64,000 nucleotides of DNA from Oryzias latipes (lineage: Eukaryota; Chordata; Actinopteri; Beloniformes; Adrianichthyidae), in assembly GCF_002234675.1 (NCBI RefSeq), contig NC_019864.2, forward strand, positions 15,951,582 to 16,015,581, read 5' to 3'. The first letter of the stretch is position 1; every line of letters begins with the position of its first letter. This document shows, piece by piece, positions 2,357 through 61,100 of the stretch. The notes under the pieces were generated by a model. The model ran no database searches and was not told where the DNA came from. It saw only the letters and a list, made by a program, of their open reading frames with translations. The position numbers and the translations under genes are program-made.

Positions 2357-5300
2357 TTGTCACCAGGCTCAGAGGATGACGATGGTGAAGGGCCTATCAG
2401 TGAAAAGCTGGGCCGGATCCAGTTCAGCATAGGCTACAGCTTCCAGAACACGACACTCACCGTCAAAGTCCTAAAAGGCCAGGACCTGCCGGCCAAGGAC
2501 TTCTCCGGAACCTCAGACCCTTTTGTTAAAATCTACCTGCTGCCCGACAAGAAGCACAAGCTGGAGACCAAGGTTAAGAGGAAGAACCTAAACCCCCACT
2601 GGAACGAAACTTTCCTCTTTGAAGGTCTGTGTTCTAAACACTCATCAAAGCTGGCGTCACTACAGACACTGAGTGACATCATGTTCCAGTAAAAAAGAAA
2701 GAAAAATGTTGATGCTGTTTGATGCTTTTTGAGAGAGTGGGGCATTTGGGATCGTCACAATGAGTGTTTTCAGTCTCCCTGCAGCTTTCTGAGCACTTGC
2801 TAGAAAAACCAGGCTCATTTCCAGTTGATGCAGGAAACTGCCAGGTCTGCCTTTTGTACAAAATTCTGTCCATAACTTTAATAGATAAAACTTCTGACTG
2901 CTGCCCGGAAATGGAGGACATCCAGTAAATTGGCGTAGGATTTAATCTCTAGTTTGGTGGCAACATGGATTAATCCTCCAGGAGTGACAGGGTGGTGTGC
3001 AGTTAAAAATGAGGCAGGCAAAATGATAATTAAAGCTATTAGATGAGACCTCCAGAATATTTCAGTAGTTTAACTTAAAAAATACGTACAGAATCCAAAC
3101 CCATTTAAGACTCCGGATTTCTGATTTGTTCTTATTTGGTCCAATTTTTTAAAAATGTATTACTTTTCATTAAAAAAAGCTTTTAGGAACAGAGATTTGA
3201 GCCACTTTTGACTAGAGTTAACATAAACCTCTTTCATTTTTCCCAATGTTACTGATAAAACTTGCAGGTTTCATCAGTACCATCTGGACTGAGCTCTTGA
3301 CAAATTGCCATCAAACGCTGTTTGGATTTTAGTTTGAAACAAGGAACCCTCCAGACTAATGACATTCAATTTTCCTGGAAAAATAAATTTAAGTAACTTG
3401 TTAGGAAATTATTAATTCCTGACTACTTTGTTTTGAGATCTTTTGTCCATTGTTGTTCCTCGCACAAATAGATTATTTTACCTAATCTTTTTTTTTTAAA
3501 ACAATGTGACAATTTTCACCCTATCAGGAATTAAAAATGGAAACCAGATTGTATTAAAATATGAGTCTCGGAGCTTATTGAGAAGAATTTTACATTTTGA
3601 AAAATTGACGCTACGACGCTTGACGATATTTAAATAATTACTTATTTATTCTGTTGATTTACATTCACATTCATAGCCAGTCCCTTTTGAAATTCCAATG
3701 TTTTTGCCTGACAGCAATGGTTAGACAGAGAAAGAAAAATGTGGATGCAGTCCAAATCTTTTCCAGAGAATCACAAGTGCTGATGAAAAATGAATGAGTT
3801 TGGCTTCCCAGTGAGGAATTCTCCGTAATGATCGCTGTGGGTCATTTGGGAAAACACTGACAATCGCTTTTTACATGCACTTTGGCCTTTGTCAAATTCC
3901 CCTCTGTTAGCACTCTGCTGATAACACCCCCCTCTGCCACACTGTCAGATACAAGCTTCTCACTCTTTGGGACTTTCGCTGCTCCTGGCAGTGTTTTATC
4001 AGCTTCTGTGTCTGTTTCAGGTTTCCCATATGAGAAGGTGAGGGAGCGCACTCTCTACCTGCAGGTTCTGGACTATGACCGCTTCAGCAGAAACGACCCC
4101 ATTGGAGAGGTGTCAATTCCCCTGAACAAAGTGGAACTGGGCCAGATGAAGACCTTCTGGAAGGAGCTCAAGCCCTGCAGTGATGGCAGTGTAAGATGGT
4201 AGAGGCTGTCTGAGGCACATTATTTCCGTGTTGCTTATTAAAGCAAGTGGGACGAGTTTGGGGACGCTTTTCAGCATGTTGGCCTGGTGGATGCAAATTT
4301 AGGATGAGCTACTTTTTTGGCAAAGACTACGATGTCCCTGAAGTGCAAATGACACCAACAAATTACTCAATGCAAAACCATATTAAAGATCACAACGAAA
4401 ATTTAAAAAGCAAAAAAAAAACCCCAAAAAAAACCACACATTACAAGAAATTACATTTAAAAGAAAAATTAAACAAAATAAAAATGAAACGTTTTGGAAA
4501 AGAAACTAACTTCTGGAAATCAAAATGAAATGTTCAAAAACGAAACACAAGAAATTTACTGAAAAAGTAGGTATCTTATGGGATATCCAATCAGTGACGT
4601 CCCATAGTATCTATGTTTTCTAGTTTCTTACTGAGTTAAATTTTTTAACATTTTATTTTGATTTCTGGAAATTCCTTTTGTTTTCTGAATATGTTTTCAT
4701 TTTTTTGAAATTGATTGTGTTTTGGTTGTTTTTTTATTATTTGTTTTACTTTTTTACTTGTAATCTTTTATTTGTTTTTGTGTTTATTTGTTAGCTTGAT
4801 TTGCACTTCAGGGCCACTGCACAAGACCAGACTAACTGTGTTTTGAACTAGAGCTTTGGGGCAGAAAGGACAGCCATATAAGATGCCACAATTTTTTTAT
4901 GAAGTAGGTTTATCAAGGAGGATTCTTGTTCCATTGTGTTTACGCATGTTCTTCTCAGGGGAGACGAGGAGAACTGCTTGTGTCTCTCTGCTACAACCCC
5001 ACTGCCAACACCATCACTGTGAACATCATCAAAGCTCGCAATCTTAAAGCCATGGATATCGGTGGAACTTCAGGTAGACACTCCTCCATGTTTATTCACG
5101 TTCTTCTTTCTTCAACCTGTGCTTGCTGCTCATCCCTCATTCTCTGGATGATGAAGGGTCTGTGGCTTCACTCGCCGCTTTGCCTTCCTCTACAAATATT
5201 TAAAGTCTTGCCTGTGCAGAGGAGAGTCACTGTCTGTTTTAGATAACTGCGGCCGCAAGGTGACATTGCATCAAGCATCTCTCAGATGACCTCTATCTTT

Positions 5301-8300
5301 CTGTTTATCTATGAGGATCAGGAGCCCTCCAACCAAATGTGTATCAGCCAAGTCTGGTTGGTTTTTAAAATAGGCATTTTTTGTGAAAAGTTTTTTTCCC
5401 CCTTTTATTTTGTAAAATCCTTCCAGGTGTAAGAGTGGTAGCTGTTACCTTTATTAAGTTCCCTAGAATAGTTAGACTAAGGCTACGTTCACACTGCAGG
5501 GCCTAATGCTCAATTCCGATTTTTTGAAAAAATCCAATTTTTTTGCAAGGCTGTTCACATTTCCAATTAAATGCAAACTTTTCTGATCTCCTGTGTGACC
5601 ATGAAATGACCCAGAACTGACCTGCATGCGCAGAAGAGTACTCAACGGTGTACGACGTCACTCGTTGTTTGTGGAAGTAGCTAACGTTAATAATGGATGT
5701 CAACAACAGTGTTGTCAACAGCGGAGCTCTTTTTGCATTATTACATTTATTTTCACAAAGGAGCCAGCACAATTACAATCTTCTCATTTTAAGAAGGCAT
5801 TGGAGCCAGGATCGTCTGTGCCCACTGTTGTGGAATAGGGATGTGTATGTGCTGGGGCCGTGCACGTGTGTGTAAGAGAGAGGAGAGTGTGCGTGCAGCA
5901 AGGTAGAGAATGAGGGGGGCAGTGTGGGCGCACATTCATGTTGTGTGTTAGGGAGGAAGGAGAACGGTAATAAAAGAAGGCTTCCCCCATAATAAATCCT
6001 ATGCACTCTTTATTAACCCATTGTGGAGAATCCTGGAGAATCTAAGGGTCCAAACGAGGAAGTGAACCCCGGAGGGGGATACGCCTTCGGTCCACCGCGC
6101 TTCTGACCGCGGTCGGAAAGGGAGAAAAAAAAAAAGTAATCGTGGGAAAGGTTCAACACCAAGCTTGGCCATTTCGCTGGAAATTTAAAAAAAAAAAAAC
6201 GCCCGGTTGTGATAAGAACCCTGGAGTTTGGCCTGAATAGAGCTGTCACCCCAAATATTAATCAAATCGGTGACCTCGCTTCCCTTCCACTGACTGGTCT
6301 CAGCAGCATCGTCCGCCATGGTTGATTTTTATGTTATATCGTTCCTGCCTACTTCAACGCAGAATAATGACGTTTGTAGCGTATCAATGACGTACAGGTC
6401 GGATACATGTGTCCTGGCCGTTCAGACAGAGGTCACATTTGAAAAGATCGGATACGTATCGGATTCAAAGACTGTCATGAAAAGATCAGATACAGGTTGC
6501 ATAGGGGCAAAAAAATTGGAATTGGGTCGTTTCAGCCTGCGGTGTGAACGTAGCCTGAATCCCCTGGCCACTATTTCCATAAATACTTCCTCATTTGTAT
6601 GTTTTCCAGCTTTGGGAATAGGTTGACCTTGAGCTCAGACTCTGTAACTGCTTCCCTGCTGCCTTTTTGACTTAACAATAAGGAGGGTAATTGCAAATCT
6701 GACCCTAAAATCCACTATTCCTGAGCATCTTCGTGATTCTGCTAATATGAACGGCTGCTCACTGCATCTATGTTGCAGACCCCTATGTGAAAGTGTGGCT
6801 CATGCACAAGGACAAGCGTGTAGAGAAGAAGAAGACGGTGGTTATTAAGTGCTGTCTGAACCCAGTCTTCAATGAGTCCTTCCCCTTCGACGTGCCCGCT
6901 CATGTGCTGAGGGAGACCACCATCGTCATCACTGTCATGGACAAGGACCGGCTCAGCCGCAACGACGTGATTGGCAAGGTAACCTGATGTCATGAGGATT
7001 TTTTTTTGCTTTCTCTGATTGAATCCGAGCAAAATAAATCAGTTTAGAGCAACATACTTAAACTTCAACAAGTACGATCATACTTTACATTAAACTATAT
7101 CCCACATTGCCAACACAGTCAGTGTTGCAATGTGGGATATAGGGATCACAGCATTTTAACAGTGAGTTATGTAATGCCTTAGTCACAGGCACCCAAACAG
7201 GGATTGACCCATATGGGTGCTGCGGGTTTTTGGGTTGTCTAAACCCGTGGGGGGTCGTAGACAGGTGCGGCTGCATCTTAAAGGGAGTGCAGGTGTGTCT
7301 TGGACCCGAACAGCCACCTTAAGGGACGTCATGAAAGTGGAACGTATCATTGTTGTGTATTGTGAAGTATTTGTAGGGATAATGTAAGTTAATCACACTT
7401 ATGCCATGTTGTACGGCAATTTAGTCGTTAGTGAGGCTTAGGTTTTGTTTAGGTGTTCACTACGGCCTGTCGCCCGCAGTGAACCACCGAGTGGTCTACA
7501 ACCTTAAAATCGTGTGCAGTATACTTGCACTCCTCATGCAGATTTGCCCCTTTTTTTTTAAAACCTGCAGCCAGCCCGTATCCACCTGTAAGGGTAATAG
7601 GAACTAAGACATCCGGTAACCTGACTAAGGTATAAAAACGGACAAAAATTCAAAGCTACATGAGCAGAATTTTACACTCACAGATCATTTTCTGTTTTTT
7701 CTACCTTTGCAGTAAATTTAAGTGTTTTACCACAAATTATTTACTGTTGGTTGCGAAAAATATTTTGCCTTAACAAATGCAATATGCAATAAGTTCTCTG
7801 AAATTCTGACATATTAAACTAGGGTTGGTTTGCTATATTGGTTTGCTGTTTTGAATTATGTCTTTATCTTCATCAGAAATGTCTCATAAATGTTCTGAAA
7901 CGAATCATTTCAAACTTCTAATCAAAGAATTGTTGTATTCTGTTGGATTTTACTGCAAATAGCAGATGATGTTCCTTGTGAACATATCAGAGTCCATCTG
8001 TGCTTCAGTGTTTTTCCTGAAGAGTTTACAACATCTTTACTTGGAAACTGGGCACCAAACCAAACACCTTCTGCTCACTGTACTGCCACCTTTTTTCTTG
8101 AGCCACAGCTGCCTCTAAATCACTGATAACTCCTGCATTTGTCGCTTTACTTAAGCCTGGCAGATGGTTAGCTTAGCACAAACATAGAAATCTGTGCAAA
8201 TGACCAGTCAGTTTTACAGATGAGAAAATCTGTCTCCCATCACCTTTGCAATCTATTTTGGCACAGAGCAAAAACCAGATAATTTCTATGGAAGGAATAC

Positions 8301-29761: not shown

Positions 29762-30979
29762 TCATGCCCCTTCATCCTGCCTTCCTCGATCCTGCTGCTC
29801 CTCCTCCTCCTCCTCCTCCTCCTCTTCCTCATACTCATAGTCTAAATCTGCCCTCTCGTACTCCAGCCCCTCTCCTTCATAATCTAATCCCTCTCCTTCA
29901 CATATCAGCTCCTCCGTCTCATATTCAACCATCTCTTCGTCATATTCCAGATTAGTTCCGTCAAAGTCTGTGGCTGGAGGCTTTGAGCTGATTCCCTGCT
30001 CTTCCTCCTTCACATCTGTATCTTCAATGGTCACCACAGCTCCGTTCAATGCTGCTTTTGAGTTGCTGTTTTTCAAGATGCCATGAATGACTGGCTCCTC
30101 CTCAGCCTCAGCTTCAGCCTGAGCTTCTGCCTCTGCCTCTTCCTCTGCAGCCTTTCGTCTCTCCTTCCTGGCCTCACGGATCTCCATGAACTCTGCTGCT
30201 CCTTCACCGACCACAATCACCTCCTCTCCTACTTTAGGAGGTGCAGTGATTGGGTTGTGGTCGTAGGAGAATAGGTGCAGGGACTTAAGGCGCTTCAGGC
30301 TGGGCAATTCTGTGAGTTTGTTACGGTCCATGTCCAGGATCTCCAAGCCCTCCATACGTAGCAGGACAGTTGGGAAGGTTTCAAAGCGATTTCCATACAG
30401 CCACAATCCTGTCAAAGCCTCCATGCGACACAGGTCAGAAGGCAGCGCTTTTAGCCGGTTGTCTCCCATTTGCAGAGACTTGAGATGGGGCAGATCATAG
30501 AGCTCCTTTGGAAACATCTGGAAGTAGTTACTCTCCATCCACAAGCATCTGAGATTCTGCAGGTTCTTCACCTCAGGGGGAAGGCTCATTAGTCGATTGC
30601 TGCCCAGGTAGAGACGGGTGAGGTTGGTGAGCTGACACACCGGCAAAGGGACGTCTTCAATCTTGTTAAAGTCGAGGGCAAGTATCCGCAGATCCTGCAG
30701 CTGGGTGATTCTCTCTGGCAAAGTACGTAGACTATTCCCACAAACGTAAAGTTTCTCTAAGTACAGCAGATCATAAACACGCAAAGGTAAGCGCTTAAAT
30801 TTACGGTAGCTCAAGTCAAGTACGGGATCCCCACTCTCCAACAACTCCTCCACCCCAAGTGGGAGCTCAACGTCATCCTTTTCCTCCTCCTCTTCTTTTT
30901 TCTTCCTGTCTGCTTCCTCACCATCAACAGCCCCGTCTTCCTCCTCTTCGCCCTCATCCTTCCTGGAGGAGTTGCCCAT
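29762..30979 (-). CDS. lrrc10b: leucine-rich repeat-containing protein 10B (single exon)
   Basis: A 405-residue open frame with no intron. After an acidic/basic N-terminal segment (residues 1-45) come about nine leucine-rich repeats of about 23 residues (50-260), with units such as LRILALDFNKIEDVPLPVC, LTRLYLGSNRLMSLPPEV and LTGLWLYGNRFETFPTVL, ending FSYDHNPITAPP and VVGEGAAEFM. These match vertebrate LRRC10B closely, including the LALDFNK, MGDNRL and LWLYGNRF blocks. Human LRRC10B is about 290 residues; the excess here is a strongly acidic tail (about 265-405) with short repeats of the EGEGLDYE type and a run of glutamates. Function is poorly known; the related LRRC10 acts in heart muscle. 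The protein begins MGNSS, but residue 6 is Arg, so N-myristoylation is doubtful. It lies opposite in strand to syt7 and fads2, as expected from the conserved neighbourhood. Confidence 0.95.
   Translation of the reverse strand: MGNSSRKDEGEEEEDGAVDGEEADRKKKEEEEEKDDVELPLGVEELLESGDPVLDLSYRKFKRLPLRVYDLLYLEKLYVCGNSLRTLPERITQLQDLRILALDFNKIEDVPLPVCQLTNLTRLYLGSNRLMSLPPEVKNLQNLRCLWMESNYFQMFPKELYDLPHLKSLQMGDNRLKALPSDLCRMEALTGLWLYGNRFETFPTVLLRMEGLEILDMDRNKLTELPSLKRLKSLHLFSYDHNPITAPPKVGEEVIVVGEGAAEFMEIREARKERRKAAEEEAEAEAQAEAEAEEEPVIHGILKNSNSKAALNGAVVTIEDTDVKEEEQGISSKPPATDFDGTNLEYDEEMVEYETEELICEGEGLDYEGEGLEYERADLDYEYEEEEEEEEEEEQQDRGRQDEGA
29797..29830. repeat. (CCT)n triplet run inside lrrc10b
   Basis: About ten CCT units on the + strand read as a glutamate run near the lrrc10b C-terminus on the minus strand. 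As a pure polypurine/polypyrimidine tract it is prone to length change; changes would stay in frame. Confidence 0.85.
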
Positions 30980-30994
30980 GCTGTGCCAAGCAGT

Positions 30995-31018
30995 CCCTGA
31001 CTCTGAGATGAGTCAGGG
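30995..31018. promoter_or_regulatory. inverted repeat in lrrc10b 5' leader
   Basis: ccctgactc (30995-31003) and gagtcaggg (31010-31018) are perfect complements around a 6-base loop, 16 bases before the lrrc10b start. In RNA this could be a 9-bp hairpin next to the start codon; in DNA the right arm carries an AP-1 word (tgagtca 31009-31015). Confidence 0.5.
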
Positions 31019-37341: not shown

Positions 37342-37385
37342 GCTCCGATTGGCCAGGAAGTCTCGAATGATCTGCTCGAAGTTCG
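37342..37385 (+). promoter_or_regulatory. fads2 copy 1 proximal promoter block (CCAAT/NF-Y)
   Basis: Contains ccgattggcc (inverted CCAAT box) then tctcgaatgatctgctcgaa. The same block stands before all three fads2 copies (44616-44660, 51414-51455). NF-Y acting with SREBP-1 is the established mode of fads2 control in vertebrates, so NF-Y binding is expected; I cannot point to a certain SRE. Just upstream, tgtgaccaccggtccaaa is shared with copy 2 only. Confidence 0.7.
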
Positions 37386-37856: not shown

Positions 37857-40800
37857 ATGGGAGGTGGAGGCCAACTGTCTGGGAGCGTGGAGCCTGGCAG
37901 CGGCAGAGATTCAGGTGTTTTCACCTGGGAGGAGGTGCAGAAGCACAGCAGCAGGACCGATCAATGGCTGGTAATCAATCGAAAGGTTTATAACATCACT
38001 CAATGGGTCAAAAGACACCCAGGAGGGTCTCGTGTCATCAGTCACTATGCTGGAGAAGATGCCACGGTAATTATGCACATTTTTTTTTAGGGTTTTGTTG
38101 TATAAAAACGTATTTTCTGTTCATGGAAAGAGGATTTTAGGCATCCTCTTATACCAATGAGAGTCCAGTGTCTACCTCAGCTGTCATCAATAACAGAGCT
38201 AATATTATTTCTTTTGCATTTTCAGACAGCTGATAGATATGTGTTTATTTATTAATGTGGCTCTATTATTCACAATGTTTGAGCAGTAGTATTTTTATTG
38301 TAATTGACCTATAGTAAACTCTGACCTTTGACCAACTTCTTCTCTGTGACACATCATCCTATGCAGTACTGGCAGATATCTCTAAAGAACACTGACCAGT
38401 CAAACTTAATTGCTTTGATTTTTTGCCATTCTCTTTAAAAGGTTTATAAAAAGGGTGTGGACAGAAATTTATTCGGAAACGTGAGCAAAGCAACATTTAA
38501 CATTATTATAATGTGTTACTACCTACGAGCACAAATCGATTTATAGTTAAATAGGGATTTTTTTTTGTTCTTGTTTTTTATTTGGGCACAATCACATGGA
38601 AATTGAGGTCAGCACCTCTTGTTAAGTCCGGTGGCAGTTCTCCTTTCTCAAAGAGACATTAGAGAATGCTTCCTGACTATGGAGGATCACATTTCTCTGC
38701 CTGATCTTTGCCAGAACATGACGACACGAGGTTCACATTCATGTTGCTCATTGTACATTCAGGCATGAGGCGTTCAAAATTTTGCCACGGAGCATTCGGT
38801 CTGAGACTCAAGCTGTCGATGCAGTTTATTGCTGGTGGGTGCTAGATTCCAGCGGGTTAACCCTGAGTCACTCACTCTTTTTACAATTTTTTGTTTTTGG
38901 AACAGCAGAGGCTCTTGATGTGAATCACAGCAGAACTGTCACTTTTTTCTCTGAGGCCATAATCACAACCAATCTAAAAATTAAAAATTGTTTTCCAACC
39001 AATATTTTGTGATATAGTATGCTATGGAAGGTAATCCAACAAATAACACAACAGAGAATATATAATATACTATAAATATTCAAATAGGATCTTATGAATA
39101 ATGTATCACATTATTTTACCAAAAAATTGTTTTATAACTATCTGAAGTATTTAAATTAAATACAAGTTGATCAAATGCTGTATAAATTACCATCTTAAAT
39201 ATTTACTTTTCTTACCCAGGAGGCATTCACGGCTTTTCACCCTGATCTAAAGTTTGTGCAAAAGTTTCTGAAGCCTCTGCTGATTGGAGAGTTGGCACCA
39301 ACAGAGCCCAGCCAAGACAGAAACAAAAATGTGAGTCTCTATAGATTCACTTCTCCACTAAAGATTGTGTTCATTTTTTTAAGTACAGACTTCATGACTT
39401 TTTTTTTTGTTGTTGCTCCCAGGCTTCCATCATACAGGATTTTGAGAATTTAAGAGTTCAGGCAGAGAAGGAAGGTTTGTTCAAGACCAAGCCTTTGTTC
39501 TTCTGCCTCCATTTGGGTCACATCTTACTGCTGGAGGCCCTTGCGTGGCTAATTGTCTGGATATGTGGGACTGGATGGACAATGACATTTTTATGCTCAA
39601 TCATTTTGGCCACTGCTCAGGTATTTAGAGCATAGTTATCTGTTAATGTAACTGCTGTTAAAGAATATTATTTATTATTAAAACAATATATACATCTGTT
39701 TCTTTCTAGTCACAGGCTGGGTGGTTGCAGCATGACTTTGGTCACCTTTCTGTCTTTAGAAAGTCCAAATGGAATCATCTGGTGCACAAGTTTGTCATTG
39801 GACATTTAAAGGTAACTTTTACAAACCATTTAAGACTTTTACAACATTCTTTAACTACTGTTTTCTGACAGGGAGCTTCTGCCAGCTGGTGGAATCACCG
39901 ACATTTTCAGCATCACGCAAAACCCAACATCTTCAGGAAGGACCCTGATGTCAATATGCTGGACATCTTTGTACTCGGAAACACTCAACCAGTGGAGGCA
40001 AGAGTAATCCACGAATCCCCTCAAAATATACATTGATCCTAACTGCTAACTTTACTCTGCGTATCTCTGTTACAGTACGGAGTTAAAAAGATTAAACGCA
40101 TGCCCTACAACCTCCAACACCAGTATTTTTTTCTTTGTAAGTTGAAGTGATGTCAACATAAATAAAGGAGCAAAAGGAGAGCATTTGTAATCAGTTTGTG
40201 TTTTGTTTTCAGTGGGTCCACCTCTGCTCATTCCAGTTTACTTCCACATGCAGATTATGAAGACCATGGTTCACCATCGTCACTGGGTGGTAAGAGACAA
40301 CCTTTTTTTGGAAGTGCAGGACAATCTTAGACAGGAAGTTGTTTTTTTGTTTATAAGGATTTGATGGATACACAATATTTTATGACAAACTAAGATGTTG
40401 AATGACTTTCTCTTTTCCAGGATCTGGTTTGGTCTTTATCCTACTACCTTCGCTTCTTCTGTAGTTATATACCCCTGTATGGTGTGTTTGGCTCTTTTGC
40501 CCTCCTCACCTTTGTCAGGTAATCGTAGAGGGAAAGTATTGCTGAAATCATTAAATGAGTCCTGATTTTTGGCCATTTTCAACCCAAAAAAATAAAAACA
40601 CTCAAAGATACGCTGTTACCCACAGGCTAATGTTACTGATCTATTTAAAACTGCTTTTTAATACTGAAATAATTGCTTTCCTTTTTACATTTTTTTTAAA
40701 TCATTTACTTTTACAGCATGTTTAGTAAATCCTGTGTCCCATCACAGGTTTTTGGAGAGCCACTGGTTTGTGTGGGTGACTCAGATGAACCATCTGCCAA

Positions 40801-41211
40801 TGGAGATTGAGAACGAGAAGCACCAGGATTGGGTGACGATGCAGGTAGCATGTTTGGCAGAAATTAGGGTGTCAGAGTTGATAATCTACAGGATTCTAAA
40901 TAATGGGCAAAAGTTAATTGGTTTTCGACCAACCAGAACAGACAAAACAAATGACTAAACTCAGATAACTTGTGTTTATCAAAACCTTCCCCTTTGAAAC
41001 ATGAAAAGTAAAAAGTGATATTTGTATATATATATAAATATATATATGCAGTACAGACCTTCTCATTCAAAGAGTTTTCTTTATTTTCATGACTATGAAC
41101 ATGGTAGATTCATTGTAGAGATGTGTCAGCTGCTAGTACTCTGTGTGCCATTGACCTGGTCTCTAATCTGAGGTGCTTTTAAAGCTTTTGGGTCCAAACA
41201 TTTGGTCTGTA

Positions 41212-41300
<89 letters not shown>

Positions 41301-42888
41301 TATTAAGCTTTTCCTAAAGCTGTTTTTTCTAAAAAACTTATTATTTAGGTTTAGATATTTTTGCTCTGATTCTTCTGTACACATGAGTGCATTTTGTAAA
41401 TTGAAGGAGTTCCCTCAGAACTGTTTTTTTTTTTTTGCTCGTTTAATGTATTTAAGATACACCTTCGTTCAAATGAGAAAACGCAGTGAGGTCATTGATC
41501 AACGTGAGAAAAACTGCATTAGAATTTTCCCTTTAATGGATGAAGTTGAACAGCTGTAAAGAAAACATAAATGATCGATTCATTTACCTGCCTTCTCTTC
41601 TGTTACAGTTGCAGTCCACTTGTAACATTGAACAGTCCTTCTTCAATGACTGGTTCAGTGGACACCTCAATTTTCAAATTGAACACCAGTAAGTAAAACA
41701 TTGCAGTCTCAGAAATTACCAAGACAACATCCACTATATGTTCAAACACAAAACAATGAAAGGGGGCTTTAAAAAAAAACTCATCTATTTTATAGATGCA
41801 AAAAAGTCAGAAACAAAACTTGCATAAAAGTTTTGCCAAACTATAAAAAACAAAAAGTTTGTCTTTTTGGTAAAACTTTTTAATTTCTTCCCAAAAAATG
41901 AAACTTTCATAAAAGTGTCGTAATTAGTTAAAGGAACATGCACTAAACAATCAACAATTTCATGGAACTTCAAATTAAGTTGATATAAATATGCTAATGT
42001 TGCTTCATTTATGATATTTACTCATTTTCATGTTTACTTTCTATAGTTTTATAACCTTAAATGGGTTACTATACGGCACTAAACTAAAGTTTTAGTCTGT
42101 ATCATGTCACCAAATATTTGTCAAAAAGGTAAATACATTATAGCAAAAATTCACTGATATGATTTTTTAAGTCAAAACTGTTGCATCTACTAATATCTCT
42201 TTCTGAGTAGTAGTTTATGCTCTGTACCTATACTCTACATTACTCACAAGAAAAGAATTAACAGCCACATAATTATAGGTTAGCCGATCAGTTTGTCCAA
42301 CAAAACAAAAAACTTTTTTTTTTGCATTGAACAAAGCCATGCAGGAGTTGAATTGCTTTCATAATAAGCATCATAGTCAGTGTAATGTCTTAGAAAAGCT
42401 TTATTTCTGAAGCTATGCTAAATAATGTGTCTGTACTGAAAACATGATTAGAGTAACTGTTTAAACCCTCCTCCAAAGACAAATGGGGTCATCAAGTTAC
42501 CTGAGGCTGACAACTGTAAACACTGCCGCTAGTTGATATCATTAAAAATGCATCAGGTTAACATGCTGCATGGAAACCTTGTGTCTGTTTTTACTTCTTC
42601 CAGTTTGTTTCCTACGATGCCCCGCCACAACTACCACCTGATTGCCCCACACGTCCGTGTTCTGTGTAAGAAATATGGTATTCCATACCAGATGAAGTCT
42701 TTATGGCAAGGCATGGTGGACGTTGTCAGGTAGGAAGAAAAGTGGTTCGACACTCAGCACATTAAATGTTTGGTCTGACCAGATTTTAAGCTGTCAACTA
42801 ATGTTTATTTCTGCATTTTGTCTCACTTCTGTTCAGGTCTCTGAAGACTTCGGGAGAGCTCTGGCTCGATGCATACCTACACAAATAA
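37857..42888 (+). CDS. fads2: Fads2 copy 1: front-end fatty acyl desaturase (12 coding exons)
   Basis: Exons: 37857-38066, 39220-39330, 39423-39620, 39710-39811, 39872-39997, 40076-40136, 40213-40289, 40421-40518, 40748-40844, 41609-41688, 42604-42729, 42837-42888 (stop TAA). The 1338 bp give 445 residues, the usual Fads2 length. The membrane enzyme of the endoplasmic reticulum inserts double bonds into polyunsaturated fatty acyl-CoA, using electrons from its own N-terminal cytochrome b5 domain. Seen here: HPGG heme motif (54-57), histidine boxes HDFGH (181-185), HFQHH (218-222) and QIEHH (383-387). The regioselectivity segment at 280-283 is FHMQ, closest to the FHYQ of teleost delta-6/delta-5 enzymes, so a delta-6-type activity is inferred. 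The start is set by MGGGGQ, shared with the other copies. Intron 5 begins with GC (39998), not GT. Intron 9 holds a long (AT)n run. Intact in every exon. Confidence 0.96.
41215..41303. repeat. (AT)n microsatellite in fads2 copy 1 intron 9
   Basis: An almost pure AT run of about 90 bases between exons 9 and 10. It is self-complementary and probably highly variable. Confidence 0.95.
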
Positions 42889-44580: not shown

Positions 44581-44660
44581 AGCGGTCCAAAAAGTTGGAC
44601 CAGTTGGACCGCTGCGCTCCGATTGGCCAGAAAGTCTCGAATGATTCCGCTCAAAGTTCG
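44581..44660 (+). promoter_or_regulatory. fads2 copy 2 proximal promoter block
   Basis: The conserved CCAAT block is at 44616-44660 (ccgattggccagaaagtctc). Directly before it, agcggtccaa (44581-44590) and ttggaccgct (44604-44613) form a perfect 10-bp inverted repeat, with a third ggacc half-site between them. Copy 1 has an imperfect version of the same arrangement; copy 3 lacks it. Confidence 0.7.
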
Positions 44661-45174: not shown

Positions 45175-45417
45175 ATGGGAGGTGGAGGACAGCTGGCAGA
45201 CACTCCGGAGGCTGGCAGCAGCAGAGATGCAGGTGTGTTTACCTGGGAGGAGGTGCAGAAGCACAGCAGCAGGAAGGATCAATGGCTGGTGATCAATCGA
45301 AAGGTTTATAACATCACTCAGTGGACCAAAAGACACCCAGGAGGGTCAAGTGTCATCAGCCTGTATGCTGGAGAAGATGCCACGGTAAACATGAATTCCT
45401 GTTAACTTTATGTGGAA

Positions 45418-45465
<48 letters not shown>

Positions 45466-48400
45466 TTACAATATAAGTTCTAAAATGACGATCAAAGTTT
45501 TTCAAAACCTTTCCTTATATCTTCACATTTGTTTTCCAGGTTTTAACTGATTTTTAGTTGAATATTTCTTACAAACTAGTTTAATGGAAAATGAATAGAC
45601 TGGTTAAGATCTGGATAATTTATTTTAGTAATATTATCATTTCGGCCTGAATAGTTTCCTGTGACACAACGATAAATATGAAATAATGCCTTTTAACACA
45701 TTATACACTTCCTTCATTTATTTAGTTTATATTAAAACAAATAGTTATATTGAATCAATTTCTAAAATAAAGAACTTCATTTGGATAAATGCAGTAATTA
45801 GAATTGCATCACATGAAGCCTTTTGTAAACATTTCAAACTGATACGATATCAATATGTGATGTTTAACTCTTGTTCTCAGACTGACATGAGTGAAACTAG
45901 TAATTAAGTCATTGTACCATGACAGTGAATTATTGGAAATGGGTACAAATTAAAGAAATTGTGACCACTGTCCACCCACCTACTGTTTCATTCCTTAGAT
46001 GTCCCCCAGTTCTTAAAGTAAGGCAAAATTTGGATTTTTGATACTTTCTGCATCTTATACATCATGTTTGCGTTTTATTTTATTTTTTTTTATTCCAGGA
46101 GGCCTTCACAGCTTTTCATCCTGATCTAAATTTTGTGCGAAAGTTTCTAAAGCCTCTTCTGATCGGGGAGCTGGCAGCAGCAGAGCCCAGCCAGGATCCA
46201 AACAAGAATGTGAGCTGTCAGATTATCTTTGATTGTCTTTCGCCTAAACAAAGAGGCCCCTCAATAATTAGGCTGCATTGCTTCATTAAGCTTTTTCTTC
46301 TTCCAGATTGCAATCATAGAGGATTTTGAAAGATTACGAGTTCAGGCAGAGAAAGATGGTTTGTTTAAGACAAAGCCTTTGTTCTTCTGCCTCCATTTGG
46401 GTCACATCCTCCTGCTGGAGATCCTCGCGTGGACCCTTGTCTGGCTCTGGGGGACAGGTTGGACAGTGACATTACTGTGTGCGGCATTGCTGGCAACTTC
46501 ACAGGTGAATAAAACAAAAGATCTTTTGGTTGAGTACCTTGCAATGAAATGTTCTAAGTACTTTGATTCTGCAGGCACAGGCTGGGTGGTTGCAGCATGA
46601 CTTTGGCCACCTTTCTGTCTTTAAGAAGTCTAAATGGAATCATCTTGTGCACAAGTTTGTAATTGGACATTTAAAGGTAACTTTTTAGATCAATTGAAGT
46701 TTTTCCTTTATATTTTAAAGTCTCCTTACATTTTTTTTATGTTTTGTTTTTATTTTTAGGGAGCCTCAGCCAGCTGGTGGAATCATCTACATTACCGACA
46801 TCATTCCAAACCCAATGTTCTGGATAAAGATCCTGATGTCAATATGTCAGGTCTCTTCGTTTTAGGAGCCGTTCAGCCAGTGGAAGCAAGTAGCTCAGAA
46901 TATAAATACCTCCAGTGCTTCATAAATGCATCGATCGAAGCTGCTCAACTAACTCTGTTGATCTTTTCTTCACAGTACGGCATCAAAAAGATCAAACACA
47001 TGCCCTACAATCACCAACACCAGTACTTTTTTCTCTGTATGGATGCTTAAAGCTGTTTAAAACCCCAAACTGTCATTGATTTCTCCAAGAATGAAGTCTG
47101 TTTTCTGTTCCAGTGGGACCTCCATTACTCATTCCAGTGGTGTTCAATCTTCAAATACTGACGACCATGATTTCCCGTCGTGATTGGGTGGTAGGATGTC
47201 AACCTATGAGACACAAAGCGATTTGATATGAAATCCATATTTGAGCTGAATTTAAATTAACCCATCTAAACTGACTAAAAAACTATGAATTATATTTTTT
47301 TTAAAAACCACTCAATCTGCTTTTTTCAAAGGATTTGGCTTGGTACGTGTCATTCTACCTGCGCTTTTTCTACTGTTATATCCCCTTTTATGGTTTCCTC
47401 GGCTCAGTGGCACTCATCACCTTTGTCAGGTAAAGAAGTTGAATTTTTCTTAAATTTGATCAAAGTAATAAAAAAATTTATTAACATATTTGTTGTCCCG
47501 TGCTTTACCTTAATATACATTTTTTCCAGGTTCCTGGAGAGTCACTGGTTTGTGTGGGTGACTCAGATGAACCATTTGCCAATGGAGATCGATCACGAGA
47601 GGCGTCAGGAATGGCTGACCACACAGGTATGTTTGTCATTCAAAGTCTATGTATCCTGACGCCTACATACTATAAGCTCCTACTCCATCTGTCTAGGGGC
47701 ACATTTTTAGGGTTTTTTGCCCTCACCGCTTGATTTTTTTAGAAAATCTCAGCAGGTATTTTGTGTAAGATTTTCTTGTTGGGTTGTGTTGGCCACCATT
47801 CATGAGCAAATATCCATAATGAATGACATACAACACTTAGATGACACTTTTATCAGTAGCAAAAGGCCGTAAAAGTAAAAACTCTTTTTTTACAAAGAGA
47901 CAACATTTTGAAGATTACCAAAACAAAAAAAAGTTCTGTCTTGCATGAAGTACACAATCTTCAGCTCAAATACCGTTAGAAGCGTTCAAGTGTTTGTTTT
48001 ACTATACAGGCTGAACTGTGCTTGTCATTGTGGTTATTTTTTTATTCTTCAAACATCTGTTTCATCTACCAAAGACAAGAGAAAAGACGGGAGCAGTTCA
48101 GCAGAGAGAAGACTAAACAAAACACATCAGAAGCCTTGACAGAGAGAGGCTCCCTGTCACAGCTTTGAAAAGACGTTAAGTCTGTTAAAAAGAAAACAAC
48201 AACTTTGAGAATGTCTGCAGTTACTGTTCCATTTCCCTAACATGCATTTTTAGTTGGTTTCTTTATTTCATTTGTTCATAAAAGATAGCGACAAACAGAA
48301 TTGTACATTTTCTAGGATATATTTTGCTCCTGTCACTTCCACTTAATTAAATAAATAACAATATTTATGTAAAATATGTACAAATGTAAGAGATTAATTT

Positions 48401-49412
48401 CAGCAAAAATGAGCAAGGCAGAATAGAAATGATTCAAAGAATCAAAACCTTTACATTCAAAAGTTTACTAGATGTTAAACTTTGAAACGTCCCATTAGAC
48501 TCTTGTGCAAAAGACAACCAAGTAAATAGACTATTAGTTTGTTTACAGTTGTGTTGTTTTTTTCATACATGTATTCTGCAGTATTGCTTCAAAAAGAAGG
48601 ACTTGAACAGATGCATTAACTCATTCATACCTGGGCCTTCATCTTTTTTTTCTTTTTTTAGCTCCAGGCTACTTGTAACATTGAACAGTCCTTCTTCAAC
48701 GACTGGTTCAGCGGACATCTCAACTTCCAAATTGAACACCAGTAAGTTTAGTTTTTGAGTCCTCCATACAAACCAGGAAATACAGTCAAACTATCATTTT
48801 CCATCTCCACACTTATGTCAATGAAACGTTTTCAATAAATGTATCTTGTTAAATAAAATTGATAATAAGAAAAACAGCTTTTTGATGGTGTATCTTGATC
48901 CATATGGGAGCCAAATATTTGTTATTAGCCCCAATACAACTGTGATACATAGACTAGTAAATTATGAGAACATTAAAGAGTCCAATAAAGTTCTACTTTT
49001 TGCTGGTTTTCTGACTCTTCACATTTTGTTTCAGTTTGTTTCCCAGAATGCCTCGTCACAGTTACCACCTGGTGGCTCCACAGGTGCGTGAACTCTGTAA
49101 GAAGCATGGAGTTCCTTACCAAATAAAATCCTTATGGAGGGCCATGGCTGATGTTGTCAGGTATGCCATCTCCACAAGAAACACATAATGTTAAAAATGA
49201 AATAAAACATTGACCATGTGACTTTGTGTCTTTAAGCACTTCAGCCAGAATGTCCGCTGTCTCCCGTTACAAACAGATCAAATGCTTAACTGACAAAGAG
49301 GCTGCTATTTTATTCATGACCTGACCTGTTTATTTATTTTTTTCTAACCTTCTTTTTCAGCTCGCTGAAGACCTCAGGGGATCTCTGGCTGGACGCATAC
49401 CTCCATAAATGA
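45175..49412 (+). CDS. fads2: Fads2 copy 2: divergent front-end fatty acyl desaturase
   Basis: Exons: 45175-45384, 46099-46209, 46307-46504, 46575-46676, 46760-46885, 46976-47036, 47114-47190, 47332-47429, 47530-47626, 48662-48741, 49035-49160, 49361-49412 (stop TGA). Lengths and phases equal those of copy 1 exon by exon; 445 residues. HPGG (54-57), HDFGH (181-185), HYRHH (218-222, still HXXHH) and QIEHH (383-387) are all kept, so an active enzyme is expected. It is the most divergent copy in exon 5: [18 protein letters not shown] against [18 protein letters not shown] in copies 1 and 3. In the b5 domain SRVISHYAG has become SSVISLYAG. The regioselectivity segment is FNLQ (280-283), neither FHYQ nor YXXN, so I cannot predict its position of attack. 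Intron 5 starts with GC (46886). An in-frame ATG at 45100 could add 25 residues; homology favours 45175. The gene is in line with copies 1 and 3. Confidence 0.95.
45418..45464. repeat. (ATT)n microsatellite in fads2 copy 2 intron 1
   Basis: About sixteen ATT units directly after the first coding exon's donor. Confidence 0.95.
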
Positions 49413-50206: not shown

Positions 50207-50419
50207 TTAACCATGGTGCTATTTTAGATGACCCCACCCTTACAATAACGTGTTCTCCCTACCATGACAAAGGTGGATAAAGGTGGAAATATTTCATGTA
50301 ATCCATGGACACCAGTGAAGATCACAAATCATTGAAGAAAAAAGGTTCAGCGCACTGTCTAGTGGGTCTAGATGACCCAACTCCCAACGTTAAAGTGCCT
50401 AGGATAGCACAAGGGTTAA
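50207..50419 (+). mobile_element. TTAA-flanked MITE (piggyBac-like), copy A
   Basis: The element begins ttaaccatggtgctat and ends atagcacaagggttaa, so TTAA stands at both ends and the termini are imperfect inverted repeats of the type aacccttgtgctatcctagg. TTAA targets are the mark of piggyBac transposases. A related copy lies inverted at 57305-57493. No coding capacity. Confidence 0.7.
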
Positions 50420-51413: not shown

Positions 51414-51455
51414 GCCGATTGGCCAGAAAACCTCGAAAGATCTGCTCGAAGTTCG
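51414..51455 (+). promoter_or_regulatory. fads2 copy 3 proximal promoter block (CCAAT/NF-Y)
   Basis: gccgattggccagaaaacct followed by cgaaagatctgctcgaagtt aligns with the blocks of copies 1 and 2. The upstream ggtcc inverted repeat of copies 1 and 2 is missing, so control of this copy may differ. Confidence 0.7.
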
Positions 51456-51620: not shown

Positions 51621-52007
51621 GTAAGTGTGAAATATTTTTAGTATATATGCAAACTGTCGCTTGGCGCGTTTACAACAACAGCCAGCTTCCGTTTTCTTTG
51701 TTATTTCCGAGTAAATCCACAGATGACACACTTTACAACGCACTGATGCAGATCCTAATGTTTTCTTTCATTATTATTAGACGAATCGTTTGTGTTTGAT
51801 CATTTAATAACCTAAGATATGATGAGGTGGATTATTTCAACCCTCTAATATATTGTTTTCCATTACTTCAACCCAAATCTTGTGTCTGCAGACTAGTTCA
51901 GCAAGCACTCCTATAATGATGAGACATCATTGATTCATTCAGACATTAATTCCAGTGTGAATCTCGTCAGACTCCTCGAGCTTGCAGGTGGATTTCCAAC
52001 AGTGAAG

Positions 52008-55000
52008 ATGGGAGGTGGAGGTCAGCAGACAGAGCCGGTCAGCGGCAAAGGGACTGGTTTTTTCACCTGGGAAGAGGTGCAGAAGCACAGCAACAGGAAC
52101 GATCAGTGGCTGGTGGTCAAACGAAAAGTTTACAACGTCACAAATTGGGCCAAAAGACACCCAGGGGGGTTTCGAGTCATCAGCCACTATGCAGGAGAGG
52201 ATGCCACGGTGAGTATGTTTCATCTTAACATGCATGTCAGGACAACTGAATCTTTGCTGCACATTTCATTGGGACAGTCAGTGGGCATTTTGTGCAGGAC
52301 TTTTGGAAAACTAAGAGGATCAGCAGTTATACTAATCTGGCATATTTATACTAGTGAGCAATCGCTCCACGGAATAAAACAATGTGTCAATAATTAATAA
52401 AAAACAAATTAAAAACACTAGTAATACATAGAAACCTGAAATCTGTGTTAGCTCTTTTGGAAAATGCCCTTAAATGTATGGCAAGCTGTTTGAACCAAAA
52501 AAAAAAATAGTAGTCAAAAATGGGGAAAAACTACTAAGTAAAATCTTTGTAATGAGAATGAACATTTCATATACTGGATCACCAAGCAAACTGCAAAAAA
52601 TTACGTAAACTAAAAGATAAACTGAGTTTCCACAACTTTTTTATTTTCTGTAGTCATGAAACGCATCTGCACATAAATCCACTCTCCCAACATTTGTCAA
52701 ATAATGTTTATCCAATAATTATTAAACTAGATTTTGTTTTTGATAGAAATCCATTGCAACTACTGCAACATAGCATAAATCATATCCATATTAAAAACTA
52801 GATTACACAAAAAAAACAACGTTTTTTTGGCACTAAGCAAATATAATTAGTTTTAAGCAGTGCAAAGTCCAAAGTTTCCTGGTTTGTCACCATCATCAGT
52901 TTTCTGTGCCATGTTTTTCTTTTTGTGTAGTAGGCTAATAAATGCAAATATCCTTGAAATGCCAATGAGGCTGACCTTGACCTTTGTACAGGGTTTTTAC
53001 TTGTAATTGAACATGACCTGCTGGCTAACTAAGAACAGGGTTCTGTTAGCTTGTCACTGCAACTGTTTATGATATGGATGCTGAACTTCCTAAATTGTTT
53101 AGGTTTCAAACTTTACTTCTATTCTGAGTAATAAAATATTGCTAAGGACAAATGCTGTTGTTGTAAATGTACTCATACTGGATTGTTAATGCACCTGATC
53201 CAGTTCAATGGTAAGTTACGTATCAGCATTTGTAGATACTTTGCACAATCCCTTAATTTTTGTCATTTAGTCAGAGAAAATACAATTTTGTAAATGAAAA
53301 GTACACTTAACTAGGCTCAGCAAATTAAAATAGGGAACTAAAATGCTTTTGCCTTTCAGGAGGTGTTTGCTGCTTTTCATCCAGATCAGGACTTTGTTCA
53401 AAAGTTTCTAAAGCCTCTGCACATTGGAGAGTTGGCAGCAACAGAGCCCAGCCAGGACAGAGAAAAGAATGTGAGTTTTTTTTTTGGATTCAAGGAGTTG
53501 TTGAAGCTCTTGTGTGATTCACAGATCTTACATAAAAAGATTTGTGTTTCCAGCCTTTCAGGACTATCCTTTATGTCTTGTGCTTTCCAGGATTCCATAA
53601 TAAAAGATTTTGATTCCCTGCGAGTCCAGACAGAAAAAGAAGGTTTGTTTAAGGCTAAGCCTTTGTTTTTCCTCCTTCATCTGGGTCACATCATACTGCT
53701 GGAAGCACTCGCATGGCTCTCTGTTTGTTACTGGGGAACCAGCTGGACAATGACTTTCCTGTGTGCAACACTGCTGGCAACTGCTCAGGTAGTTTTAAAC
53801 ACAGTTATCTTTTTGATGATGAAAATATTTCCAGTTCTAACAGTTATTTATCTTTAAATTCTGCAGGCACAGGCAGGGTGGTTGCAGCATGACTTTGGTC
53901 ATCTATCTGTCTTTAGGAAGTCTAAATGGAATCACCTCGTACACAAATTTGTCATTGGACATTTAAAGGTAACTTTTCTTTAGATAATGTAGGAATTTAA
54001 CCAGAAAACAGACATAGATGTAAAGATTTTTTTCTTTGAAAGGGAGCTTCAGCCAATTGGTGGAATCATAGACATTTCCAGCATCATGCCAAACCCAATA
54101 TCTTTAGGAAGGACCCTGATATTAATGTGATGGACGTCTTTGTACTTGGAAACACTCAACCAGTAGAGGCAAGTTTCTCCAAGTAAAATATTTTTTTAGT
54201 TTACTGAGCTTTAAAGCTTACTCACCTCTATTTTCTTACTACAGTATGGAATAAAAAAGATCAAGAAAATGCCCTACAATCGCCAACACGAGTATTTCTT
54301 CCTTTGTATGTATTCATAGATGTTAAAAATGTTACAAATCATAGCAGTGTACTTAAAAAGAACTATTGTCTTTGCATTTCTTAGTGGGTCCACCTCTACT
54401 CATTCCAGTATTCTACAATTTTAACATATTTTACACCATGATTACCCGTCGTGACTGGGTGGTAAGCCTGTATTTTCTTTTTGGATCAATTTGGTTTATT
54501 ATAAGAAATGTATGCATTCATTTAACACAACTACTGAAACCTAACAGTTATGTTACTAAAATAAACATTTACATTTTTTTAAGGATCTGTCTTGGGCAAT
54601 GACGTATTACTTTCGCTACTATTTCTGCTTTGTACCTCTGTATGGCTTCTGGGGCTCATTTGCACTCCAGTTGTTTGCCAGGTGAGCTAAAATAATATAG
54701 TTTATTTCTTGTTTTTTCTTTTGCTTGTCATTAATGATCTGCTTCCTATCATCAAAATTGACTTTTGACAATTTTAATACCCAGCACAGAGAGAAATTTA
54801 AAGTGAAGCCCTTTGATTTCCCAGATTTTTGGAGAGTCACTGGTTTGTGTGGGTAACTCAAATGAACCATTTACCAATGGAGATGGAGCATGAGAAGCGG
54901 CAGGACTGGATGACCACACAGGTAATGCATTTCTCTAAAAACATAGTTTCACCATTTTATAATTCTGTACCAGAGTTCAAAAAAATTATGGTTGGAAAGT

Positions 55001-56351
55001 GATTAATCTTGGTTCTGCCATTGAAATCCTGACATTTGTTTGATGTAATTTTCATGCAGCTATCCGTTCTTGATGTCTTTATTTCTATCCCGTAATCGGA
55101 TGAATTCACAAGGTCTTTGCTTGTGCTCACAGTCAAAACATAAGACAAAATAGTCGGGAGTTTTTTATTTTTTTTAACCCAGATTGCACTGACACGTTTG
55201 GGGACTGTGTAAAAAGGTTGGCTGTACTTCACTGAGTCCCAACTGTTGTTTCACAGTTGTTCTATACAGTTTTATGTGTCTAATATTAAAATAATATTGT
55301 GTCCTTTGGAAATCTTATGACTAGAGACACCTTAGCATTGGCAATGTATTAATTTTTGGTTCGTAATTGGTTGGTTGGAGGTTCAAATCCTAGGCTGTTA
55401 GTATGTTCTTGGGTAATTCAAAAGTCTCCCTCAAATGTGAAAAATATGTTTCTATTCTTAAAACCAACATGACAATGTGTAGAAATATGAAAGTAAATAT
55501 TTTTAATATTGACAGATTAAAATGCCCAAAACAGAAGTTCACTTGAGTTTATTCTACACCTGATAGATAAAAGAGAGTAGAATATTACTAAATGAGCAAT
55601 ACTTATCTGTTATTTGTTTCAATGGCATACGACACGTTTAGTGCCATTTTGAAAGGAGATAAATGAAACTTAAGTGTAATTTGAGGTCTGTTTTTCTGAG
55701 CCAAATGCTAAAAAGTGACAGCTGTGTGATGGAGGATGAACACAGCTACATTTACATTTTGTCTCCTTTTTCAGCTGGTGTCCACTTGTAATGTTGAACA
55801 GTCCTTCTTCAATGACTGGTTCTCTGGACACCTCAACTTTCAAATTGAACACCAGTAAGTAAAGTTACAATTACAGGACCTTTGTCATGAAGTCTGATTT
55901 GATTTTCTTTAATAACTCTTTTTTTTCCCCCCGTCAAGAATACCAAAAAACAAAAGAAAATACTGATGTCAGGTTAAACACTTGTTCTGTTTCTTTCTTT
56001 CAAGCTTGTTTCCCAGGATGCCGCGTCATAACTACCACTTGGTGGCGCCACAAGTCCGTGCACTGTGTGAGAAACATGGAATTCCTTATGAGATGAAATC
56101 CTTATGGAGAGGCATGGTGGATGTTGTGAGGTAAGGACAAGGAAAAACAGTGTGTGAGGTTCATGATGCTGCAAAATCAAGTCATTGTGCTGATTTGGTT
56201 ACCAGAGCAACAAGGGGAAGATGTTTTTAGTGACAAAACAATAATTCTTGTTTGTTTAAATGTATATCAAATTAATTTTTATCTTATCCTTTTTTTTAGG
56301 TCTCTGAAAAAGTCAGGGGATCTGTGGCTTGATGCATATCTTCATAAATGA
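52008..56351 (+). CDS. fads2: Fads2 copy 3: probable delta-4-type fatty acyl desaturase
   Basis: Exons: 52008-52208, 53360-53470, 53591-53788, 53867-53968, 54043-54168, 54245-54305, 54385-54461, 54584-54681, 54825-54921, 55775-55854, 56005-56130, 56300-56351 (stop TGA). The first exon is 9 bp shorter than in the other copies; the rest are identical in length and phase. 442 residues. HPGG (51-54), HDFGH (178-182), HFQHH (215-219) and QIEHH (380-384) are intact. Residues 277-280 are YNFN. A Y-x-x-N at this place is the published signature of teleost delta-4 Fads2 enzymes, which turn 22:5n-3 into DHA directly; the other two copies have F-x-x-Q. Delta-4 activity is therefore inferred, not shown; some YXXN enzymes also keep delta-5 activity. 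Intron 5 starts with GC (54169). The gene ends tail to tail with the eps8-family gene. Confidence 0.96.
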
Positions 56352-57304: not shown

Positions 57305-57493
57305 ATAACATTGGGAGTTGGGTCATCTAGACCCCACATGACAGTGTGCTGAACCTTTTTTCTTCAATCATTTGTGATCCTCATTGGTGTCCATGGATTA
57401 CATGAAATTCTCTTCACCTTTATCCACCTTTGTCATGGTAGGAACAACACGTCAATGGTCATCTTGACCCCATAGGATAGCACAAGGGTTCAA
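57305..57493 (-). mobile_element. TTAA-type MITE, copy B (inverted, worn)
   Basis: Its reverse complement aligns with 50207-50419 along most of the length, including ttcatgtaatccatggacac and gggtcatctagac. One terminal TTAA has decayed (gggttcaa). Together the two copies flank fads2 copy 3 in opposite orientation. Confidence 0.7.
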
Positions 57494-58135: not shown

Positions 58136-61100
58136 TCAGTCTGTGCCACCAGAGTCGATCCTCTCCTGCCTTCGCTTCATGATCTCCTGCAGCTCTGAAC
58201 TCCCACTGGATTTCTGTGAAAAAGTAGAATTTAGTTGGTCAAAAAGTTTCAACGTTAAACCCTCTCCCATCCCACTCTCTGTGTTTTAGCAGCTTTGCTG
58301 TGTAGCTCTGACAGTTTCACAGTGGAGCGCAATTTCAACAAACTATGATTTAAGAACCAGTACTAACTTGTCCATAAAAGGGCCCCAAAGGAAAGGGTTT
58401 AAGGAATTTCTTACACTTGAAAGTTTGAAAAAAAGAACAACAATGACCTCCTGACAAACACAGTAGTTTAAAACAGATGTGCAGGATGTGAGCATGCACA
58501 CATGTGCAGGTTGACACTGACCTCTACCTGCTCCTTTTGCACAGTGACCTGAAAGTAGACTCGTCCACCTTCATCTCCACACACGGCTTTCAGCTCGTCT
58601 TTATTCAGGGAAAAGAGTTGAGCTCCGGTCAGGATTCCCAAGCAATCCACAGTCCTACAGAAAGCACAATCAAATAAAAATATTGGTCGATTTTCATGCT
58701 TTTATTTGAATTTTGCAATGCATGTTTTGCTGTTGGATAGCTGAGCTTTGTATTTGGTTCAGATGCAAACTTTTCATATTTCAAAACACAACACATTAGC
58801 TGGAATGAGTTATTTTGTCTGTAACTTACTAATAAAAATTAAGTGGTTTCTGATGTAAATGTACATCAACTGTAAAAATAAAAGCAAAAACAATGACTTA
58901 TAACTAGGTTAAAAACTAAAGCATATACTTTAATGTTGCAATCGTTTGCACAGGAAGCCGAAATGCAAATATCATGTACTAATTGTTCAACTTTTACTAA
59001 GGACATCTTTGAAAACTTATTGTAATCGTTAAATCATATCACTTGAGCTTTGAGTCACTTTATAAATGTTAAAAAGTAGATATTAAAGCATTCAAGTGTC
59101 CCTGAGAAGCACCTGTGTGTGTAAGGGTAACCTAAACCAAACGGGGTTGATGAAACTGATGTTTTTGTGGCCTTTGAAAGGGGGGCTAACAAGTTTCACG
59201 AGAAACTTACGGTTTTGAGAAACCCTTTGCATTGAGCCACGCTGTCACCTGGCCTGGGTTTGAGTCAGAGGTCAGAGGGACTTGTGTGCTCGGTGTTCGC
59301 TTCACATGGATCAATTTGGGTGGTTGGGTTTTGCTGGCCGTGATTTTCTTGAGTAGTTCATTGTTGACCTCATCCATTGCTGCAGACATATGGGTGTTAT
59401 TAACATAAAACAAATGCTTTAAAGTGTTTCTATTTCCTTTGAAGTATATAACACTACCTTTGTCTTTGGTGATGCCCTTGTTAAAACTGTCTTCTCGGCT
59501 CGCAGAACCCGAGGGTGAAGTCATGAAGCTCTTCTGCACATGTAGAAACAAACAAACTTTGCTATTACGAGACTGTTAATTAACAAAACTGGTTTGTCTT
59601 TTACATCAACCACGTTTCACAATTTTGCCTGCAGGCAAAAACAAAATATGTGTGGGGCCTTACAAACACTGCAGCAGTAAACCCAGAGTTTGCAGGAGTC
59701 ACAAGATTTACTGATACAAGATTTAAAAAAGGATGATGTATTGGGGAGACATTCAGATTTTTATAAAATTACGGTATGTATAATTTTTAAAGTTGAGCCG
59801 ATTCACTGCTGGCTCTTTCAGAATGTTTTTTTTTCCCTTTAGATAAGTTAAATTTATTGGTTTTTGAGCTTTGTCTGTTTGGAGCTTTCTTAAATAAATC
59901 CCTTCCACTCCACCCTTCTAAATCCTGGATCCCCGGAGCCCTTTACTTCTATATATTACATTGAATGGTATAGTTTTTGTTACTCGTAATCATGACTGCG
60001 TGAAAGATTTCACACACTATTAACATCATTTTATCTGTTGTCTTTGTGCTTTGTACTTTTAACCCAGAAGCTAGATTGATAATCAACATTTGTTATCTAA
60101 CACTGTTTAATCTTACAGAATGCGTACATTAGTGTGGAAATCATCGGGTGGTTGAAACTAAAGTAAGTTCAAGTTTGGCACAAAGTACAAAGTATGCAGG
60201 GCTGTAAAAATAGGTATACCAACAAGGCGTAGTCAAATACACCATTTTGCTAAATGTTGTTCACCTATCAGCATATCCCCTCAGGAGTTGCCACAGCGAA
60301 TCAGCAGAGATTTTTATGAAGGATGCCCTTGCTGACACGACCCTGTATTTTATCCAGACTGGGGACCAGCACAGGGGATCCAAGACTGGGTCTCCTTGTG
60401 GCTACATAGTCAGGCAGTTGCGTCAAAGGTCTTGGCTAAGGACCCACACTGTGTTAGTCTCATCGCAGCCCCTGGGAAACAAACCCAGGTTTCCTGTGTG
60501 CCAGTCCTACATACAGCCAACTGAGCCGTCCAGCCGCTACCATATCGCTCTATGAACAAGTCAAAATGCAGTAATGATGTAATTCTTTCCTGCATAACCC
60601 ATAATGCACTTTGATTATGTAAGGCATATGGCTTCATGTGAATGATAATTGGACTTTAGAAATGAGTTCATGTTCTGCTGATATCAGATCTCAGTAAATG
60701 CTTTGTTGTGTAACTAATAAATCACCTGGTTGTAGGGAACGTCTGGGTCCTCGATTTTCACGACGTCCAGAACATTAAATGGGACATAGCCAGCCTGTCC
60801 ACTCCGATTACGCAGCTTCCACCACTGTTTATCATCCTCTAATACCTGCAGGACAGACACATTCTATGTCACACTCTACAACTTCAATTGATAGAAACAG
60901 CGGTTAATTTAGAAAATCTAACATCATAATGAAGTGACAATCAAGATAATGATAGGACTAAAATAATTTGTCATTACAACCTCAAGAATTTCATCCTGCA
61001 GAACCGACAGCTCGTTGGCATTCCGTGCTACAAAATTATAGCGGATCTTTGCAAATTTGCGGTTGTTGGGCTTCTCACTGTAAGAGCTGTTGAGAGACAG

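Follow-up and report, generated by a model that had tools for sequence, protein, structure and literature searches.

Three tandem fads2 genes at a medaka locus

The stretch of DNA analyzed here (the window, 64 kb) comes from the genome of medaka, Oryzias latipes, and contains three tandem fads2 genes, all on the + strand, of which the third (copy 3) is the main subject of this report (Table 1). Splice models were made by hand from splice signals and from the mutual homology of the three copies, and they yielded for each copy 12 exons with a full-length open frame and a stop codon. Cytochrome b5 and desaturase domains, as defined by Pfam, are present in all three proteins together with the heme and histidine motifs. 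In copy 3, the cytochrome b5 domain (PF00173, E 3.4e-24) and the desaturase domain (PF00487, E 3.5e-34) both scored above the cut-off, with HPGG at residue 51 in the former and HDFGH, HFQHH and QIEHH at residues 178, 215 and 380 in the latter. Copy 3 therefore has the domains and histidine boxes of a Fads2-type front-end desaturase, and its locus neighbors fit that identity. Comparison of the copy 3 protein with the PDB by sequence gave 51 matches, all of them within residues 12-113, the cytochrome b5 part.

The proteins are identical at 355 of 445 positions (copies 1 and 2), 350 of 442 (copies 1 and 3) and 333 of 442 (copies 2 and 3). Pairwise divergence by the Nei-Gojobori method (NG86) amounts to 0.80-0.90 at synonymous sites (dS) and 0.12-0.15 at nonsynonymous sites (dN), and these values, with the identities, indicate that the three genes are old, constrained duplicates. 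Intron 5 begins with GC instead of GT in every copy (39998, 46886 and 54169), the remaining 10 donors per copy being GT. Two simple repeats lie in introns of the array: intron 9 of copy 1 contains 44 copies of TA (41215-41303), and an ATT repeat (45418-45465) is located in the first intron of copy 2.

Table 1. Features of the fads2 array and its surroundings, in window coordinates.
Feature	Position	Strand	Details
fads2 copy 1	37857..42888	+	12 exons, 445 amino acids, motif FHMQ; splice model; Pfam Cyt-b5 and FA_desaturase
fads2 copy 2	45175..49412	+	12 exons, 445 amino acids, motif FNLQ; splice model; Pfam Cyt-b5 and FA_desaturase
fads2 copy 3	52008..56351	+	12 exons, 442 amino acids, very probably the delta-4/delta-5 desaturase gene; splice model, Pfam, published primers exact at both ends
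YNFN, delta-4 signature YxxN, residues 277-280	54414..54425	+	copy 3, exon 7 (54385-54461); codons TAC AAT TTT AAC
FHMQ, aligned place in copy 1, residues 280-283	40242..40253	+	alignment
FNLQ, aligned place in copy 2, residues 280-283	47143..47154	+	alignment
Forward cloning primer site, O. latipes delta-4 fads2	52005..52024	+	0 mismatches, copy 3 start; copies 1 and 2 each differ at 2 bases
Reverse cloning primer site, O. latipes delta-4 fads2	56327..56351	-	0 mismatches, copy 3 stop; only window site at 3 or fewer mismatches
GATTGGCCAG promoter core (inverted CCAAT), copy 1	37347..37356	+	510 bases before ATG; 76% similarity over a 71-base block to the sequence upstream of copy 3
GATTGGCCAG core, copy 2	44621..44630	+	554 bases before ATG
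GATTGGCCAG core, copy 3	51417..51426	+	591 bases before ATG
Two open frames with C2 domains, a synaptotagmin	2318..6987	+	2318-2692 and 6751-6987; Pfam C2
Leucine-rich repeat protein	29762..31012	-	Pfam LRR
Two open frames with SAM_3 parts	58468..59575	-	58468-58701, and 59207-59575 (weak); Pfam SAM_3

The YxxN motif of copy 3

The first-pass annotation of this DNA had pointed to a YxxN signature in copy 3, at the place where the other two copies read FHMQ and FNLQ, and the spliced models confirmed all three segments exactly, residues and coordinates included. The pattern occurs once in the copy 3 protein and is missing from the other two. From the composition of copy 3, the chance of Y..N at one given place is ~0.0016, while the pattern is expected 0.68 times anywhere in the protein; it is therefore the position, and not the pattern, that carries meaning. 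Underlying the motif, reportedly, is a mutagenesis study published by Lim et al. in 2014.

A causal role for the motif can be judged from the tandem Fads2 enzymes of Hypoclinemus mentalis (Matsushita et al. 2020, PMC7501227). There, F277Y alone gave Fads2a no delta-4 activity, F277Y together with Q280H gave it a delta-4 preference, and Fads2b was left without its delta-4 preference after Y277 was changed. By analogy, these mutants support a part for the motif in delta-4 preference, and the YxxN segment may likewise be the structural cause of such a preference in copy 3. Both systems have tandem fads2 genes whose exon boundaries are shared, and in H. mentalis one tandem copy turned delta-4 through residues 277 and 280 of a 442-residue protein, which are the length and the positions found in copy 3. 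They differ in age and in detail: the H. mentalis copies are near-identical (eight differences), whereas the medaka array consists of three old copies that are 75-80% identical, and the switch at residue 280 is from Q to H in H. mentalis, while medaka copy 3 has N.

Copy 3 and the cloned medaka enzyme

Copy 3 was compared with the primers printed by Oboh et al. (2017, PMC5478668) for the cloning of the O. latipes YXXN delta-4 Fads2, XM_011476059. The gene-specific parts of the primers were compared, with the restriction tails removed. Both matched copy 3 exactly, one at each end of the gene, and each had a single exact site in the genome, whose 25 contigs total 734,051,031 bases (the window lies at C6:15951582-16015581). 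With exact sites at both ends and one genomic site for each primer, copy 3 is very probably the cloned gene; the comparison, made at the primer sites, showed no difference, and the shared YXXN can be added to it.

Conversions by the O. latipes enzyme in yeast were 24.1% for 22:5n-3, to docosahexaenoic acid (DHA), and 13.7% for 22:4n-6, as well as 11.8% for 20:4n-3, to eicosapentaenoic acid, and 2.3% for 20:3n-6; no product was detected from the C18 substrates listed, 18:3n-3 and 18:2n-6, and hence no delta-6 activity on these (PMC5478668). The table of that paper for C24 substrates covers other species, and the delta-4 enzymes in it, from C. estor, S. canaliculatus and O. niloticus, showed no activity. 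From the motif, delta-4 activity had been predicted for copy 3, and with it a possible DHA synthesis that bypasses the Sprecher shunt. The published assay of the primer-matched gene bears out the former, with delta-4 and delta-5 but no C18 delta-6 activity, and documents in yeast a single-step conversion of 22:5n-3 to DHA. Copy 3 is thus almost certainly the fads2 gene of O. latipes (or of an Oryzias identical at the primer sites) that encodes a delta-4/delta-5 front-end desaturase, and it stands last in the tandem array; behind this conclusion, structure, motif and primer-level identity come from the present analysis, and yeast activity and the role of the motif from published work.

Because copy 3 does not act as a delta-6 desaturase on C18 substrates, the array could reach DHA from 18:3n-3 only if copy 1 or copy 2 contributed a delta-6 step. 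We infer that one of these supplies it, which would let the three genes together make DHA from 18:3n-3, and in the living fish copy 3 may serve DHA supply together with that step.

Weighing alternative readings of copy 3

Several observations weigh against the assignment of copy 3 as a delta-4 enzyme and as the assayed gene. YxxN is a good but not a strict marker of delta-4 activity: the delta-4 Fads2 of Channa striata has YXXQ (Garrido et al. 2019, PMC6671994), and the trifunctional, delta-4 active Fads2 of Trinectes maculatus keeps the F of delta-6 enzymes (PMC7501227). The link between copy 3 and the assayed clone consists of two primer sites, 45 bases in all. As a control, the primers that Oboh et al. 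printed for tilapia (PMC5478668) had no exact site in the window; there, the forward primer came no closer than 2 mismatches, at copy 1 and at an unrelated place (21160), but the reverse primer lay 1 mismatch from copy 2. Gene ends are therefore conserved among fish, and the medaka primers could equally match a closely related Oryzias species.

The motif segment, exons 7-8, changes fast. Of its 58 columns 30 are variable, compared with 103 of 387 in the rest of the protein (Fisher p 0.0002), with gaps counted as differences and the segment chosen after the per-exon table had been viewed; on the same counts, copies 1 and 3 have 27 differences in the 58 columns and 68 in the other 387. Residues changed in copy 3 alone number 10 of 58 in the segment and 33 of 387 outside it (p 0.053). 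A comparison of copies 1 and 2 also puts this segment first for variability among 58-column windows (20 of 58, rank 1 of 388); copy 3 is thus not the only copy to diverge there. For these two reasons, divergence of the motif segment was rejected as a mark of delta-4 evolution.

If YxxN were incidental, copy 3 could be a delta-6 or delta-6/delta-5 enzyme, and the existence of delta-4 enzymes with YXXQ or with F in the motif does imply that other residues matter. This is nevertheless very improbable, as the primer-matched medaka gene has clear delta-4 and no C18 delta-6 activity (PMC5478668), and no YxxN Fads2 lacking delta-4 activity was met in the accessible text of the literature searched; should copy 3 be the gene that was assayed, the delta-6 reading is already refuted. 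The other alternative, that copy 3 is a duplicate in decay and serves no function in the fish, is more improbable still. All 12 exons, the splice sites and the catalytic boxes of copy 3 are intact, dN/dS calculated from the NG86 values is ~0.14 against copy 1 and ~0.17 against copy 2, and the gene cloned by Oboh et al. was amplified from a complementary DNA mix of liver, brain and intestine (PMC5478668).

Copies 1 and 2

The FXXQ type of motif is found both in delta-6 and in delta-6/delta-5 enzymes (PMC6671994), and it therefore does not predict the function of copies 1 and 2. No assay of either medaka copy was found in the literature searched, from which subscription papers were mostly absent, and this is no proof that none exists; the accessible text of PMC12466638, PMC10441761 and PMC10240347 reported no activity for any of the medaka copies.

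Exon 5 is 87% identical between copies 1 and 3, and that of copy 2 (46760-46885) is 70-71% identical to either; Fisher tests on the protein gave no significant signal of gene conversion in this exon (p 0.13-0.16). Around the second histidine box, in alignment columns 211-240, copy 2 has 8 residues of its own, copy 1 has 0 and copy 3 has 3. Given these changes, the substrate or position preference of copy 2 may differ. If rat residue numbering is shifted by one relative to the medaka alignment, Arg216 would correspond to R, L and R, and Leu323 to L, I and Q, in copies 1, 2 and 3. Both belong to a set of rat residues placed near the substrate in a review, along with Trp244 and Gln245 (PMC7072455).

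Promoters

The stretches scanned for promoter elements ran from 37200, 44450 and 51250 to the ATG of copies 1, 2 and 3. Each contains the core GATTGGCCAG, with similar flanks upstream of all three copies. We take this inverted CCAAT core to be of the NF-Y type, which would make it a putative NF-Y site. None of the scanned stretches matched a simple GC-box pattern of the Sp1 type, and a simple pattern resembling the sterol regulatory element (SRE) matched once before copy 3 (51967) and not before copies 1 and 2. NF-Y and SRE elements have been reported in fish fads2 promoters (PMC5220380, PMC6829471). Basic control is likely to be common to the three copies.

Locus neighbors and genome-wide searches

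By domain and position, we take the C2-domain frames to be syt7, the leucine-rich repeat gene to be lrrc10b-like, and the SAM_3 frames to be eps8-like. Castro et al. (2012, PMC3285190) described three Fads-like genes in medaka and named syt7, lrrc10b and eps8l1 at teleost Fads loci, a layout that fits the domains around the array. Those authors found the delta-6 label tempting for the medaka enzymes, whereas copy 3 is not delta-6.

The match lists of the genome-wide searches are lower bounds. A search with copy 3 gave at least 30 matches; among those listed, 29 fell in the array and one (C6:23283107) covers only the cytochrome b5 part. The FA_desaturase search returned at least 2 places outside the array (C22 and C15), and it missed the array itself because the genes are matched exon by exon. 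With ELO, at least 34 matches were obtained for the elongase family as a whole, to which elovl2 and elovl5 belong. Rfam gave 0 matches at gathering score over 36000-60000.

A dispersed repeat lies on both sides of copy 3, in two copies of inverted orientation (50243-50366 and 57333-57457). It occurs widely across the genome (among the 40 of 884 candidates that were scored, the 39 besides the query are 94-97% identical), and its position on either side of copy 3 therefore looks incidental.

Significance

The finding on copy 3 is correct and already known, the three genes having been published in 2012 (PMC3285190) and the delta-4 activity in 2017 (PMC5478668), and the remaining interest of the medaka array lies in the function of copies 1 and 2. 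Tentatively, and against the odds as we judge them, the three copies could have three specificities: delta-4/delta-5 in copy 3, delta-6-like in copy 1, and something else in copy 2, the last because the residues around its second histidine box are changed relative to copies 1 and 3. If true, there would be a division of labor over the whole DHA pathway at one fish locus. The medaka fads2 array is a clear example of direct delta-4 desaturation in a laboratory fish, and this short route to DHA is relevant to aquaculture and to fish settling DHA-poor fresh water.
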